Below, in pieces: positions 4,279 to 31,475 of a stretch of 64,000 nt of DNA. Position 1 is the stretch's first letter; every line of letters starts with the position of its first letter. The position numbers and the translations under genes were made by a program. The notes below the pieces were generated by a model, which made no database searches, was not told where the DNA came from, and saw only the letters and a program-made list of their open reading frames with translations. Origin of the DNA: an uncultured Eggerthellaceae bacterium (lineage in GTDB: Bacteria > Actinomycetota > Coriobacteriia > Coriobacteriales > Eggerthellaceae); NCBI GenBank assembly GCA_944321455.1, contig CALULI010000002.1:124001-188000 (forward strand), given 5' to 3'.

Positions 4279-7041
4279 CTAATTTCTATGAGCACCGTGG
4301 CACTTTTTGAACTTCTTGCCTGAACCGCAAGGGCAAGGATCATTGCGACCCACATTAGCATAAGGATCATCCTTGTCCTTGACCACCGTCTTTGCCTTTT
4401 CAGGTGCGTTAGTTTGTACCTGCTGAGGCGCTGAAGGAGCTGTTGATGCAGCGGCTTGTGCTGCAGCAGCGGCAGGTGCTGCTGTCGAAGACGTGTTAAG
4501 CGTTTCTTCAGGGTTGGAGTAGCTAACCTTGCCATCCAGCGGATTTTCCTGTTCAGGCAGCGGCTCAACCACAAGAGGAGCACGCAGCAAGAAGCGCAGA
4601 AAGTCTTCGTAGATAGAAGACGTCAGGGCAGCAAAGGAGCGGTGAGCTTCTTCGCGATATTCGGTCAAAGGATCGCGCTGACCATAGGCACGCAGGCCAA
4701 TGGATGACTTCAAGTAGTCCATTTCTTGCAGCTGCGTCATCCAACGTGAGTCAATAAAGCGCAGCATGACTTGGGACTGAATATCATCAAAGATAGGACC
4801 AACCTGGCTTGCCTTTTCGTCATACTTTTCCTGGAAGATAGCGCAAAGCTGATCGATCAACTCATCAACATCATCGTCATGATCAATCTCTTCAGCCTTC
4901 AGTTCGGAGTCTCCCGTCATCTGAGAGAGCCACTGATCCAAGGTTTCAAAATCCCAGTCATCACTTGGCTGCTTAGGAGAACACGACTCAAGAACGTGAG
5001 CAGATACGGCATCAGAAATAATTTCAGGAATGCGATCGCCCATCTTCTTGCCATCTAAGATAGCGTTACGTTCCTCATAGATTGCCTTACGCTGCAAGTT
5101 CATAACGTCGTCGTATTCAAGAACATTTTTACGCAGAGCAAAGTTTGAGGATTCAACCTGACGCTGAGCCGTCTCAATAGCCTTGGTTACCATGGAAGCC
5201 TGAATAGGCATGTCTTCTGGCAACGAGGTCTTTTCCATCATGCGAGAGACCGATTCCATCTTTGCGCCACCAAACAGACGCATCAGATCGTCTTCAAGCG
5301 AAAGATAGAACTGTGTCACGCCCGGGTCACCTTGACGACCAGAACGACCACGGAGCTGGTTATCAATACGTCTACTTTCGTGACGTTCCGTGCCAATAAC
5401 ACACAAACCGCCCGCGGCAAGAACTTCTTTGTTTTCCTTTTTGGTGATGGCTTCTGCCTTAGCAAGCGCCTGTTCTTCCTGTTCGGGTGTGGGCTCTTCA
5501 TCTTCGTCAAGCATGCCGATCAAGAATTCGTGAGCCAATACCTCAGCGTTGCCGCCCAGCAAAATGTCCGTACCACGACCAGCCATGTTGGTTGCAATGG
5601 TAACCGCACCCTTGCGGCCTGCCTGAGCAACAATGGATGCTTCGCGTTCATGGTTTTTAGCGTTCAAGATTTCGTGCTGAATACCACGCTTGGAAAGCAA
5701 ACGGCTCAAGCGCTCTGAACTCTCAATGGAAACGGTACCAACCAACACGGGCTGGCCGTTAGCATGGCGCTCAACAATATCATCAGCAACCGCATTGAAT
5801 TTTGCATCAATGGTGCGATATACCAAGTCGTTTTTGTCATCACGAATAACGGGCTTATTAGGAGGAATTGCCATAACAGGCAGCTTATAAATTTCGCGGA
5901 ATTCCGCGTCTTCTGTCATAGCAGTACCCGTCATGCCAGAAAGCTTGTCATAAAGACGGAAGTAGTTCTGCAAGGTAATGGTTGCCAGCGTCTGGTTTTC
6001 TTCGCGAACACGCAAGCCTTCTTTAGCTTCCAAAGCCTGGTGAAGACCTTCAGAATAGCGACGGCCTTCCATGATACGACCCGTGAATTCGTCAACAATT
6101 TTGACTTCGCCATTCACAACAACGTAGTCAACATCGCGCTTGAACAAGAACTGTGCGCGCAGTGCTTGCTGCAAGTGATTAGGCAGCTGACCGTTAGGGT
6201 CACCGTATAAGTCTTCAATACCCAGCTGGAATTCGATCTTTTCAAGACCTTCTTCCGTTGCGTAGATAGTGCGCTTAGCTTCGTCCATTTCGAAGTCAAC
6301 GCCCTCTTTCAAGGAAGGCATAACGGTAGCGAAGCGCTGATACATATCAGCGGCACGATACCCTGCACCAGAAATAATCAGCGGCGTACGCGCTTCGTCA
6401 ATAAGGATGGAGTCAACTTCGTCTACGACGGCAAACGAATGACCGCGCTGCACACGCCTGTCAGCGCGATTGACCATGTTGTCGCGCAGATAGTCAAAGC
6501 CGAATTCGGAATTGGTACCGTAGGTAACATCAGCCTGGTAAGCAACTCGCTTTTTGTCAGGAAGCATACCGCTTTGCAGAAGGCCTACCTTCATGCCCAA
6601 GAAGCGATAAATCTGACCCATCCACTGGCTGTCGCGCAGTGCCAAGTAATCATTGACCGTAACAATGTGAACGTTGTTGCCAGGCAAGGCATTAAGATAG
6701 CCCGCCAGGGTTGAAACAAGCGTTTTACCTTCGCCCGTTTTCATTTCAGCAATCTTGCCGTCATGTAAGGCCATAGCGCCAATGAGCTGAACGTCAAAGT
6801 GGCGAAGACCAATGGTGCGCCTACTTGCTTCACGAACAACCGCAAATGCTTCGGGAAGCAGATCATCAAGATCTTCCCCGTCTTTGAGGCGAGCACGGAA
6901 TTGGTCGGTCATTCCTGCCAATTCAGCATCAGTTTTTTTCTGGATTTCAGGTTCAAGAGCGTTGATGGTTTCCACAACGCGTTCGTACTTTTTAAGAGGT
7001 CTGTTTTCTCCTACACTTAGCAGTTTTGAAAAAAGTCCCAT
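4279..7041 (-). CDS. secA: Preprotein translocase ATPase SecA
   Basis: Motor ATPase that drives secretory proteins through SecYEG. From the ATG at 7041 (MGLFSKLLS, the usual SecA start) the protein is 920 aa; a GTG 10 codons upstream is less likely. Walker A MKTGEGKT lies near 100-107, a DEVD-type Walker B (VVDEVDSIL) near 205-215, and helicase motif NMAGRGTDI further on. After an Ala/Ser/Thr-rich linker the C-terminus ends in the zinc-binding SEC-C motif CPCGSGKKFKKCHG, which binds SecB or ribosomes in other species. First gene of the secA-prfB-transketolase-ftsEX run. Confidence 0.98.
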   Translation of the reverse strand: MGLFSKLLSVGENRPLKKYERVVETINALEPEIQKKTDAELAGMTDQFRARLKDGEDLDDLLPEAFAVVREASRRTIGLRHFDVQLIGAMALHDGKIAEMKTGEGKTLVSTLAGYLNALPGNNVHIVTVNDYLALRDSQWMGQIYRFLGMKVGLLQSGMLPDKKRVAYQADVTYGTNSEFGFDYLRDNMVNRADRRVQRGHSFAVVDEVDSILIDEARTPLIISGAGYRAADMYQRFATVMPSLKEGVDFEMDEAKRTIYATEEGLEKIEFQLGIEDLYGDPNGQLPNHLQQALRAQFLFKRDVDYVVVNGEVKIVDEFTGRIMEGRRYSEGLHQALEAKEGLRVREENQTLATITLQNYFRLYDKLSGMTGTAMTEDAEFREIYKLPVMAIPPNKPVIRDDKNDLVYRTIDAKFNAVADDIVERHANGQPVLVGTVSIESSERLSRLLSKRGIQHEILNAKNHEREASIVAQAGRKGAVTIATNMAGRGTDILLGGNAEVLAHEFLIGMLDEDEEPTPEQEEQALAKAEAITKKENKEVLAAGGLCVIGTERHESRRIDNQLRGRSGRQGDPGVTQFYLSLEDDLMRLFGGAKMESVSRMMEKTSLPEDMPIQASMVTKAIETAQRQVESSNFALRKNVLEYDDVMNLQRKAIYEERNAILDGKKMGDRIPEIISDAVSAHVLESCSPKQPSDDWDFETLDQWLSQMTGDSELKAEEIDHDDDVDELIDQLCAIFQEKYDEKASQVGPIFDDIQSQVMLRFIDSRWMTQLQEMDYLKSSIGLRAYGQRDPLTEYREEAHRSFAALTSSIYEDFLRFLLRAPLVVEPLPEQENPLDGKVSYSNPEETLNTSSTAAPAAAAAQAAASTAPSAPQQVQTNAPEKAKTVVKDKDDPYANVGRNDPCPCGSGKKFKKCHGAHRN

Positions 7042-28540: not shown

Positions 28541-28645
28541 TTGCGCGTATTTTTCATGTGACACACAAGCTGCTAGAGCATTGCATTTTTCATGAGGCGC
28601 ACGAGTTGCTGACCCGTTGCATTTTTCATTTGACGCGTTGCTTGG
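28541..28645. repeat. Three-copy degenerate repeat upstream of lysR
   Basis: Units of about 40, 36 and 29 bp begin at 28541, 28581 and 28617. They share TTGC...TTTTTCAT, a G(A/C)C(A/G)CAC-like middle and a TTGCT end. They lie just before the lysR promoter region and could bind the regulator or be a decayed tandem duplication. Confidence 0.6.
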
Positions 28646-28740
28646 TATTATACGGATTTAACACATGCCGTCCCCCATTTGTGGCATGTGCTTGTTCTAC
28701 ACAATCGAATCCCCCCGATGTATGAGGAGTTCATTTCCCC

Positions 28741-29643
28741 ATGAACCTTGCCCATTTACGCTACTTCGAAACCTTAGTGCAAACAAAAAGCTATCAAGAA
28801 ACAGCACGTATTGAATCGGTTTCTCAACCAACGCTTTCCCAGGCCATCAATGGACTTGAAAAAGAGCTGGGTGCGCCGCTTTTCATTCGTAAAAAAGGCA
28901 GTGTTGAGCTCACACGTGAAGGACGTGCCTTCTCAAATTACGTGCGGGCTTCATTGCGCTTTTTGGATAATGGGATTGATTACGTACAGAGCACATCGGG
29001 TAGAGCACGTAAGGAAATTTCGATTGGCTCAATTTATTCCGCCCAGAGTAAAGACTGGTCCAATCTCATTTATGAATACCGCTGCTTAATGCAGGGAAAT
29101 ATCAAGATCAACATTGAACAGTCAACAACGCAAGATCTTCTTCGACGCGTTAAAGATGGTCGTGTCGACGTTGTCTTCTGCGGCAAAATGGACGTCGATA
29201 GCGACCTTGCGTTTTACCCCTGCTGGACACAAGAGGCCGCGCTGGTTGTTAATCGCCTGCATCCCTTGAGCAAGCGCTCAGAAGTTTCACTGGAAGAACT
29301 GGGGCACCACTATCTTATCTCGTATCGCCTCAACAGTCCCCTCTCCCACGAGATAACCCAACTGACCCGCGGCTACAACCTACGTTGCAACTATGGGTTT
29401 AACGACGAAATTACCTTGGCCTCCATTGTGGCAGCCAATCCTGATGTTATGGCCATTGCTTGCAATTCATGGCTGCTCCATTCGTTTGATAACGAAGTTA
29501 CGCGCGTCAAGATTACCGAAGCACCACAAGAGTTCAGGCAGATCTACTTGTGCTATCGAGCAGATATTGAAAAGCCACAAGTGGTGGAATCCTTTATTGA
29601 GCTGACGAAGAAAATGTTTCCCGAAAAAGAAGCTAGGCTATAA
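28741..29643 (+). CDS. LysR-family transcriptional regulator
   Basis: 300-aa regulator. The winged helix-turn-helix occupies about residues 1-60 (LRYFETLVQTKSYQETARIE, SQPTLSQAINGLEKELG). A periplasmic-binding-like effector domain follows with the EISIGS-type start and SLEELGHHYLISYR. It is divergent from ilvD, so ilv control is a fair guess, but it does not clearly match IlvY. A GAGGAG site precedes the ATG. Confidence 0.88.
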   Translation: MNLAHLRYFETLVQTKSYQETARIESVSQPTLSQAINGLEKELGAPLFIRKKGSVELTREGRAFSNYVRASLRFLDNGIDYVQSTSGRARKEISIGSIYSAQSKDWSNLIYEYRCLMQGNIKINIEQSTTQDLLRRVKDGRVDVVFCGKMDVDSDLAFYPCWTQEAALVVNRLHPLSKRSEVSLEELGHHYLISYRLNSPLSHEITQLTRGYNLRCNYGFNDEITLASIVAANPDVMAIACNSWLLHSFDNEVTRVKITEAPQEFRQIYLCYRADIEKPQVVESFIELTKKMFPEKEARL

Positions 29644-30063
29644 AACAACAATTACCCCGTAAGGAGCGCGTTCAAAACATTCGCTAAAGCTGAATGTGCA
29701 GACCGTAAGAATTAGGCATATAGGACAAAATTACGGCAAAAAAATAACTCTTTCTGGTAGTTGTCCCCAATAACAAGCACCAGAAAGAGAACCCCTCCCC
29801 AATTTACTCACGTCCTTGCGACCTCGAATCCCTCGGACCAATCGGTTTCCCCAAACCGTGAACGTGTTCAATTGGTCTGTAATAGTTTTATCATGCTGCC
29901 CTCTATAAATAAAGTAGATTATTTTGAACCGATTCGGCGTATTTTAATTTTTTCAAAAGAAGCGCTCACAGAGCCCTTTCTTTTACCCATTTTTGAAATA
30001 TTGTGGGTCTAGCGTCAACAAACCCCTAGAATATGATTCAACAAATATGAAAGGCATAAACCC
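29644..30063. other. Intergenic region with a structured RNA candidate
   Basis: 420 bp between lysR and the gamma carbonic anhydrase gene. No protein-like frame. Most of 29738-29880 can fold strongly (see the ncRNA entry). The inverted repeat CCGTAA/TTACGG spans 29703-29736. The sequence from ~29900 to 30060 is AT-rich and shows little beyond a weak ACCCA/TGGGT repeat near 29988-30005. Confidence 0.6.
29738..29880 (-). ncRNA. Candidate structured small RNA of unknown type
   Basis: Read on the minus strand, GACCAAT (29877-29871) pairs with ATTGGTC (29842-29836). The closed interval is filled exactly by two hairpins, TGAA-CACG-TTCA and CGGTTT-GGGG-AAACCG, giving a three-way junction without unpaired linkers. 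A G-rich single-stranded stretch follows. Last comes an 11-bp perfect stem CTCTTTCTGGT/ACCAGAAAGAG (29789-29779 with 29758-29748), topped by a TTGT/ACAA stem and followed by TTATTTTTTT, a textbook terminator. No minus-strand gene precedes it, so it would end a stand-alone transcript. It does not match SRP, RNase P, 6S or tmRNA as I know them. A promoter is not obvious (TATAGA near 29906 is one option). Confidence 0.4.
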
Positions 30064-30615
30064 ATGACTCTCTTCAATGTTGAACTTCATCCACGCTGCA
30101 TTATTTCTCCCACCGCTGTCTTGCTTGGTGATATTACGATTGGCGAAGATGCTTCGGTATTTCCTGGGGTGGTTATGCGCGGTGACTGCAAAGCTATCTC
30201 TATTGGCAAACGCACCAACATCCAAGATGGCGTCCTTGTTCACATGAACTACGAACACGATACCGTGGTCGGTGACGATGTTACCGTCGGGCACGGTGCC
30301 ATACTTCATGGCTGCACCATTGGAGACAGAACCATTGTTGGAATGGGCGCAACCATTATGGATGGCGCAACGGTTGGATCGGATTGTCTTATTGGTGCTG
30401 GAGCCTTAATCCCCCAAGGAGTCACCATTCCTGATGGGTCATTGGTAATGGGTCTTCCCGGCAAAGTAATACGACCCTTAACCAACAAAGAGAAGGCTGA
30501 ATGCCTTGATTCAGCGAGGCGCTACCTCAAGCATGCGCATGACTATGTAGAGGAAGGTATATTCCTTTTAGGAAGCGCTATCGAAAAAGATCCGTATCGC
30601 TTTGCCTTAAAGTAG
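30064..30615 (+). CDS. Gamma carbonic anhydrase-family hexapeptide protein
   Basis: 183-aa left-handed beta-helix protein. Hexapeptide repeats (ISPTAVLLGDITIGEDASVFPG..., IGDRTIVGMGATIMDGATVG) run through residues ~12-150, ending in a C-terminal helix. The three zinc-ligand histidines of the family fit H60 (VHMNYEH), H79 and H84 (VGHGAILHGC). Proteins of this YrdA/PaaY type are trimeric; many lack proven anhydrase activity. It converges on punA. Confidence 0.85.
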   Translation: MTLFNVELHPRCIISPTAVLLGDITIGEDASVFPGVVMRGDCKAISIGKRTNIQDGVLVHMNYEHDTVVGDDVTVGHGAILHGCTIGDRTIVGMGATIMDGATVGSDCLIGAGALIPQGVTIPDGSLVMGLPGKVIRPLTNKEKAECLDSARRYLKHAHDYVEEGIFLLGSAIEKDPYRFALK

Positions 30616-30629
30616 CTACTCGTGTGAAA

Positions 30630-31475
30630 CTACTCGCATGAGAGCTTCTGCAAAAACGCATCCATCAAAGCGGTGAAATCCTGCTCAACAGCGCGCGCAA
30701 CATCCATAACCTCATCAGAGGTTGGATCGCCGCCTTCGACCCCGCATGCCATATTGGAGAGCAACGACATACCGACCACGCGCATGCCGCAGTGACGAGC
30801 AGCAATCACTTCTTCAACAACACTCATGGCTACCGTGTCAGCACCCCAGGTAGCAAACGCACGAATTTCTGCAGGTGTTTCAAAGCTTGGTCCTAATACG
30901 CTTAAGTACACGCCATCTTCGAGCGTGACCTGAGTCTGTTGCGCTGCTTCATGCATACGTGCACGCAGCGAAGGATCATACGCATCCATCATGGGAACAA
31001 AGCGCTGAGCCATACGCGCAGGCTCTTGACCAACCAAAGGATTACGACCCGTCGCGTTGATGTGGTCGGTCATCAGACAAAACGTTCCAACCTTAAAGGC
31101 AGGATTGATAGCACCTGCAGCATTGGTCGTAATAAGAATATCAATGCCACAAGCCTGCATCACCCACACAGGAAAGGCCACCTCAGCAGCTGAATAGCCT
31201 TCGTAGCCATGAAGACGTCCTTGCATGCACAGCACCCACGTATCCGTTTTGGCAACCTTACCCAGCACAAAACATCCGCGATGACCCTCTGCCGTTGAAA
31301 CGCCCATGCGGGGAACATCACCGAACGGAAGAGTTTGTGCTTGCTCAAGCGTATCGGCGTAGCAATTAAGGCCACTGCCTAAAATAAGACCTGCAACAGG
31401 CTTTCGTTGATCCAAAAAACGGGTCAGCACCACTGCTGCTTCATCAATTGCTTGGCGAAGAGACGTTTCTTCCAT
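30630..31475 (-). CDS. punA: Purine nucleoside phosphorylase (trimeric, PunA type)
   Basis: Phosphorolysis of purine nucleosides for salvage. The 281-aa product from ATG 31475 (AAAGGA upstream) has the GSGLNCYAD phosphate loop, AEGHRG, MQGRLHGYEGY, NAAGAIN, MTDHIN, GPSFETPAEIR and GADTVAMS motifs. The Asn that selects 6-oxopurines in this class fits LLSNMACG. Last gene of prfA-prmC-punA. Confidence 0.92.
   Translation of the reverse strand: MEETSLRQAIDEAAVVLTRFLDQRKPVAGLILGSGLNCYADTLEQAQTLPFGDVPRMGVSTAEGHRGCFVLGKVAKTDTWVLCMQGRLHGYEGYSAAEVAFPVWVMQACGIDILITTNAAGAINPAFKVGTFCLMTDHINATGRNPLVGQEPARMAQRFVPMMDAYDPSLRARMHEAAQQTQVTLEDGVYLSVLGPSFETPAEIRAFATWGADTVAMSVVEEVIAARHCGMRVVGMSLLSNMACGVEGGDPTSDEVMDVARAVEQDFTALMDAFLQKLSCE

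Follow-up and report, generated by a model that had tools for sequence, protein, structure and literature searches.

A candidate GGGG-loop small RNA beside a lysR gene of an Eggerthellaceae bacterium and its possible pairing with the lysR leader

A minus-strand RNA candidate next to lysR

According to our analysis of a 64,000-nucleotide stretch of DNA from an uncultured Eggerthellaceae bacterium (the window), the intergenic region between a lysR-type regulator gene and a carbonic anhydrase-like gene likely harbors a real minus-strand RNA, as judged from its sequence. We tentatively propose, with somewhat less than even confidence, that it is a base-pairing small RNA whose G-loops act on C-rich mRNA leaders, in the first place on that of lysR (Table 1). 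The RNA would be roughly 140 to 175 nt long, would end at the terminator at position 29738, and would show GGGG in hairpin loops together with one G-rich stretch ahead of the terminator. We infer that it is transcribed and that it base-pairs in the cell with mRNAs at their C-rich loops or leaders. The likeliest target here is the mRNA of the adjacent lysR: UGGGGAAA would bind to UUUCCCCA at the start codon, block translation, and thereby repress the gene. The GAACGTGTTC palindrome, for its part, may be an operator through which a LysR-type protein regulates either the RNA or the carbonic anhydrase gene. This lysR pairing model is a specific, testable, and as yet unproven proposal.

Table 1. 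Features of the window in and around the proposed small RNA gene
Feature	Position	Strand	Remarks
lysR leader hairpin 1, CACATGCCGT-CCCCCATTT-GTGGCATGTG	28662..28690	+	GUCCCC complements GGGGAC of the RNA
lysR leader hairpin 2, ATCG-AATCCCCC-CGAT	28704..28719	+	Complement GGGAUUCGA in the RNA
lysR leader hairpin 3, GTTCAT-TTCCCC-ATGAAC	28729..28746	+	lysR ATG in stem; UUUCCCCA complements UGGGGAAA of the G-loop hairpin, 8/8
lysR-type regulator gene	28741..29643	+	Pfam HTH_1 and LysR_substrate; convergent with the RNA; G015 orthologue adjoins ilvD
Degenerate second palindrome GAGCGCGTTC	29664..29673		Directly after the lysR stop
Proposed small RNA gene	29738..29912	-	3' end is the terminator; putative 5' end placed by the weak promoter-like site
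Intrinsic terminator	29738..29789	-	UUGGGGAC in loop region, tail UUAUUUUUUU
G-rich segment UUGGGGAGGGG	29792..29802	-	Precedes the terminator; UUGGGAGGG at the same place in the G015 RNA
Segment GGGAUUCGA	29824..29832	-	9-nt complement of lysR leader hairpin 2; direct repeat D6
Linker-free three-way junction	29836..29877	-	Seen in the sequence; pair probability about 0.08
G-loop hairpin CGGTTT-GGGG-AAACCG	29843..29858	-	Pair probability 0.86-0.88; G015 and G016 RNAs also have GGGG-loop hairpins
Palindrome TGAACGTGTTCA (first junction hairpin)	29859..29870		Probable operator of a LysR-type regulator
Weak promoter-like site TTAAAA-18-AATAAT	29918..29947	-	Matches 9/12
Gamma carbonic anhydrase-like gene	30064..30615	+	Hexapep family; CarbAnhydGPos match below cut-off; downstream of the palindrome

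Both the terminator and the G-loop cluster of the proposed RNA can be read directly from the sequence. The strong minus-strand terminator described in an earlier note on this DNA is present (29789 to 29738), running CTCTTTCTGGT...ACCAGAAAGAG and then TTATTTTTTT, 46 nt downstream of the junction, with arms at 29748 to 29764 and 29773 to 29789 that are 88% complementary over 17 nt. We likewise found no minus-strand gene between position 30630 and the motif, as that note had held, and its statement that the RNA belongs to no recognized class agrees with an Rfam covariance-model search of the window RNA, which returned no family matches. The RNA motif is single copy, and 151 nt of the minus strand fold with an energy of -48.7 kcal/mol (z = -3.1 versus dinucleotide shuffles). 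Promoter-like sites in the region are no commoner than in shuffles. Two short minus-strand open reading frames were also seen: one of 23 codons (MGKRKGSVSASFEKIKIRRIGSK, 29919 to 29990) lies directly upstream of the window RNA, is basic, and is probably a product of chance, while one of 8 codons (MIKLLQTN, 29868 to 29894), with a ribosome-binding-like GAGGG, lies at the start of the proposed RNA and may be a leader peptide or chance.

The three-way junction and the predicted fold

The 7-bp helix enclosing two hairpins without spare bases, on which the earlier note had built its reading, is indeed found on the minus strand (29877 to 29836) as GACCAAT-TGAACACGTTCA-CGGTTTGGGGAAACCG-ATTGGTC, where the hairpins TGAA-CACG-TTCA and CGGTTT-GGGG-AAACCG follow each other without unpaired linkers. 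A search for perfect Watson-Crick linker-free junctions of 7, 4, and 6 bp, devised after the motif was seen, gave no second case in 928 kb of strand sampled from the genome, so that chance alone is unlikely to account for it. However, the weight placed on the junction is not borne out by the predicted ensemble, in which the pair probabilities are about 0.08 for the enclosing helix P1 and about 0.07 for the TGAA/TTCA hairpin, and 0.86 to 0.88 for the GGGG hairpin; moreover, a likely DNA operator occupies the site of the first hairpin. The junction is the minimum free energy (MFE) structure for the first 60 nt only, and over the RNA it lies 2.6 kcal/mol above the MFE fold, a gap that is within the usual prediction error. 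The three-way junction is probably not what matters.

Apart from the emphasis on the junction, the idea of a stand-alone small RNA is the best reading of the locus, given that comparable GGGG-loop RNAs with terminators lie near lysR in two relatives. The window RNA contains one strict G-loop hairpin, a count that 33 of 1,000 shuffles (3.3%) match, and its second and third GGGG are largely paired in the predicted fold. In 464 kb of the genome, TTGGGGA occurs twice within 120 nt in the window RNA only, and across all loci compared this holds for the window RNA and the G015 RNA only. As far as folding predictions indicate, GGGG in hairpin loops is the durable feature of the RNA and is common to the RNAs of the relatives.

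Comparable RNAs in related genomes

Two genomes of the same genus, G015 and G016, carry RNAs comparable to the window RNA by synteny and architecture. In G015, the lysR orthologue (54% identity) is divergent from ilvD as in the window, and the RNA lies downstream of it on the opposite strand, with the hairpins CATTGGGGAATG, ATCGTTGGGGAACGAT, and CTGACGAGAGGGGAATTTCGTCAG followed by the segment TTGGGAGGG, a short stretch of N in the contig, and a terminator whose loop contains GGGG. The G016 RNA is found roughly 700 to 800 nt upstream of a different lysR, on the same strand, and has a terminator and the hairpins CTTGCTT-GGGG-AAGTAAG, ACGTGCT-GGGG-GGCACGT, and CTTGC-AGGGGA-GTGAG. The number of GGGG-loop hairpins was equaled by 1 of 1,000 shuffles for the G015 RNA and by none of 1,000 for the G016 RNA, whose fold has z = -7.6. 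The three RNAs are mutually not alignable and the genomic context of the G016 RNA differs, so that their homology rests on position and architecture. A low-complexity, repeat-like stretch (5602 to 6300 of locus L111) separates the G016 RNA from its lysR.

A blastn search of the window RNA against 140 genomes of the family returned no homologue, only chance-level matches of 24 to 28 bp, and no match was found in phages, plasmids, or viral contigs. The G015 and G016 RNAs used as queries revealed no further members and reached no gathering score with the Rfam covariance models, and the other lysR loci examined held no further G-loop RNA. A covariance model of a single hairpin (R1) was too small, and its genome search missed known members. 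A more far-reaching proposal, which we consider doubtful, is that the window RNA belongs to a genus-specific class of GGGG-loop RNAs encoded beside lysR genes under LysR-type operators and silencing C-loop leaders by multiple loop-loop contacts; the window RNA, encoded antisense at the lysR 3' end, would then repress the 5' leader of that same lysR.

The palindrome as a candidate operator

A DNA operator, presumably bound by a LysR-type regulator, may account better for the first junction hairpin, TGAACACGTTCA. In stretches of G014, G015, and G016 (about 152 kb), many of them selected for holding lysR genes, the palindrome GAACRYGTTC was found 15 times versus 0.56 expected; these copies are mostly intergenic, often beside lysR, and several stand 100 to 200 nt upstream of the neighboring gene. 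The genome of the window itself shows no enrichment (3 in 485 kb versus 1.8 expected). The window copy is separated by 224 nt from the end of lysR and by 200 nt from the carbonic anhydrase-like gene that follows, a possible LysR target. A perfect copy in G016 comes 13 nt behind the stop codon of a lysR, a position like that of the degenerate second palindrome of the window. When searched against the genome contigs, the carbonic anhydrase protein gave matches in distant phyla only. The sequence AATTGAACACGTTCATGG, upstream of a hydrolase gene in G016 (locus L110, 7037), matches the window palindrome plus its flanks and is a further candidate site of the same regulator.

Alternative explanations

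If these features acted as DNA, the palindrome being a LysR operator that controls the carbonic anhydrase gene while the G/C tracts were sites of a DNA-binding protein around lysR, the RNA hairpins would be meaningless. The recurrence of GAACRYGTTC beside the lysR genes of relatives and the placing of the window copy speak for such an explanation; however, each G tract caps a hairpin, and the stems of these hairpins are unlike one another in sequence, a pattern to be expected of RNA loops rather than of a DNA site; a strong terminator then follows. An operator and an RNA can, moreover, coexist, and we deem the pure DNA explanation unlikely. It is quite unlikely, too, that the terminator merely ends a long minus-strand transcript, in which case transcription of the operon ending with the purine nucleoside phosphorylase gene would run on, antisense across the carbonic anhydrase gene, as far as 29738, the upstream hairpins being incidental. 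No strong terminator directly follows the phosphorylase gene, the only candidates being weak ones inside the carbonic anhydrase gene near 30500, and the promoter-like site proposed for the RNA is weak, such sites being no commoner than in shuffles, but about 750 nt would have to be crossed. A comparable RNA at the same place in G015 also argues against read-through; the 463 nt of contig beyond lysR, a length too short to judge further upstream, carry no minus-strand gene there.

The RNA could instead, though we rate this as improbable, titrate an RNA-binding protein as CsrB does, by way of GGA or GGGGA loops, and five segments containing GGA in the window RNA, with more in the RNAs of the relatives, would suit such a role. 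CsrA, however, is absent from this genome and from all 140 family genomes searched, with positive controls, which makes CsrA titration unlikely; titration of another protein is conceivable. There is only a slight chance that the RNA serves as a sponge for C-rich small RNAs instead of regulating mRNAs: the exposed GGGG motifs of RsaI of Staphylococcus aureus pair with the UCCCC seeds of RsaE (PMC9217828) and provide a precedent, whereas our scan of 464 kb of the genome picked up no C-rich small RNA bearing a terminator, and 6C RNA is missing from the genome.

The lysR leader as a candidate target

For the proposed pairing with mRNA leaders, the lysR leader is the clearest C-rich counterpart within the sampled 464 kb of the genome. 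It holds three C-loop hairpins, of which the third encloses the start codon, an observation made after the fact. Among 385 leaders (the window plus twenty 20-kb stretches of the genome), lysR alone has at least two TCCCC, and it has three; non-coding sites with two TCCCC within 90 nt are, throughout the 464 kb, the lysR leader, one site in locus L186, and the strand opposite the RNA itself. All three C-loops have complements in the RNA, of 9, 8, and 6 bp, and the summed score places lysR at rank 2 to 4 of 385. Shuffled RNAs attained this score in 4 to 11% of trials, and by a single-site score that includes accessibility lysR ranks only 19 to 25 of 385, such that these statistics on targets are no more than suggestive. 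Comparable C-loop clusters are missing from the lysR leaders of G015 and G016, which implies that the lysR target is not conserved. The RNA might also act in antisense on the 3' end of lysR; pairing with the C-rich 5' leader looks likelier. Just upstream of the lysR promoter-like site, the ilvD-lysR intergenic region (28549 to 28634) contains three imperfect tandem copies of ATTTTTCATGTGAC... with 36 bp spacing.

Relation to known regulatory RNAs

The window RNA and those of its relatives resemble CsrB and RsmZ in their series of hairpins with GGA in loops, from which they differ in that the loops here are GGGG and that CsrA is missing across the family sample. 6C RNA was rejected, as the genome has no RF01066 match and the loops of the window RNA are G-rich and not C-rich. 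GcvA is a LysR-type regulator. The gene of the non-coding RNA GcvB adjoins the transcriptional regulator gene gcvA (PMC9409037), as the window RNA lies beside a regulator gene, and the amino-acid transporter targets of GcvB are weakly echoed by the agcS match in G015 described below. Unlike gcvB, which is divergent from gcvA, the window RNA is convergent with lysR and has no Rfam match; any control of its expression by a LysR protein is hinted at by the operator-like palindrome only. With RsaI it shares the exposed GGGG, differing in its lack of an Rfam match, in its proposed partner, an mRNA leader, and in the position of its gene beside lysR.

The C-rich loops of sX13 of Xanthomonas and GsrN of Caulobacter pair with G tracts located close to the translation start or at the 5' end of the mRNA (PMC3771888, PMC5869019), and GsrN homologues lie near regulator genes, the loop being their most conserved part (PMC5869019). 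A short single-base tract in loops that pairs with complementary tracts is common to these RNAs and the proposed one, but the polarity is inverted, with C-rich loops and G-tract targets there and G-loops here. If true, our proposal would amount to a base-swapped counterpart of the C-rich seeds used by other bacteria, tied to a LysR-type regulator, and loop motif plus gene neighborhood could find such RNAs where sequence alignment fails. Our search of the literature on small RNAs in this bacterial group found nothing relevant, which makes a testable candidate with a proposed target useful.

Other candidate targets

In G015, one hairpin of the RNA matches a C-loop hairpin in an agcS leader by perfect complementarity over 17 nt. 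We rejected agcS as a conserved target: the agcS leaders of G014 to G016 have C tracts, whereas the agcS-like leaders of this genome are without a matching hairpin. The second agcS-like gene here (locus L128) is preceded by a sequence which we take to resemble a glycine riboswitch. The energetically top-ranked match of the RNA is to the leader of an ATPase-like gene (locus L192, 18704, minus strand), to whose segment ACCCCTCCCCA it is perfectly complementary over 11 nt; this target was likewise set aside, as by our estimate chance alone would yield one or two 11-mer matches in a set of leaders this large. The promoter region of this ATPase-like gene carries repeated TGTGTTAGACACA-like copies.
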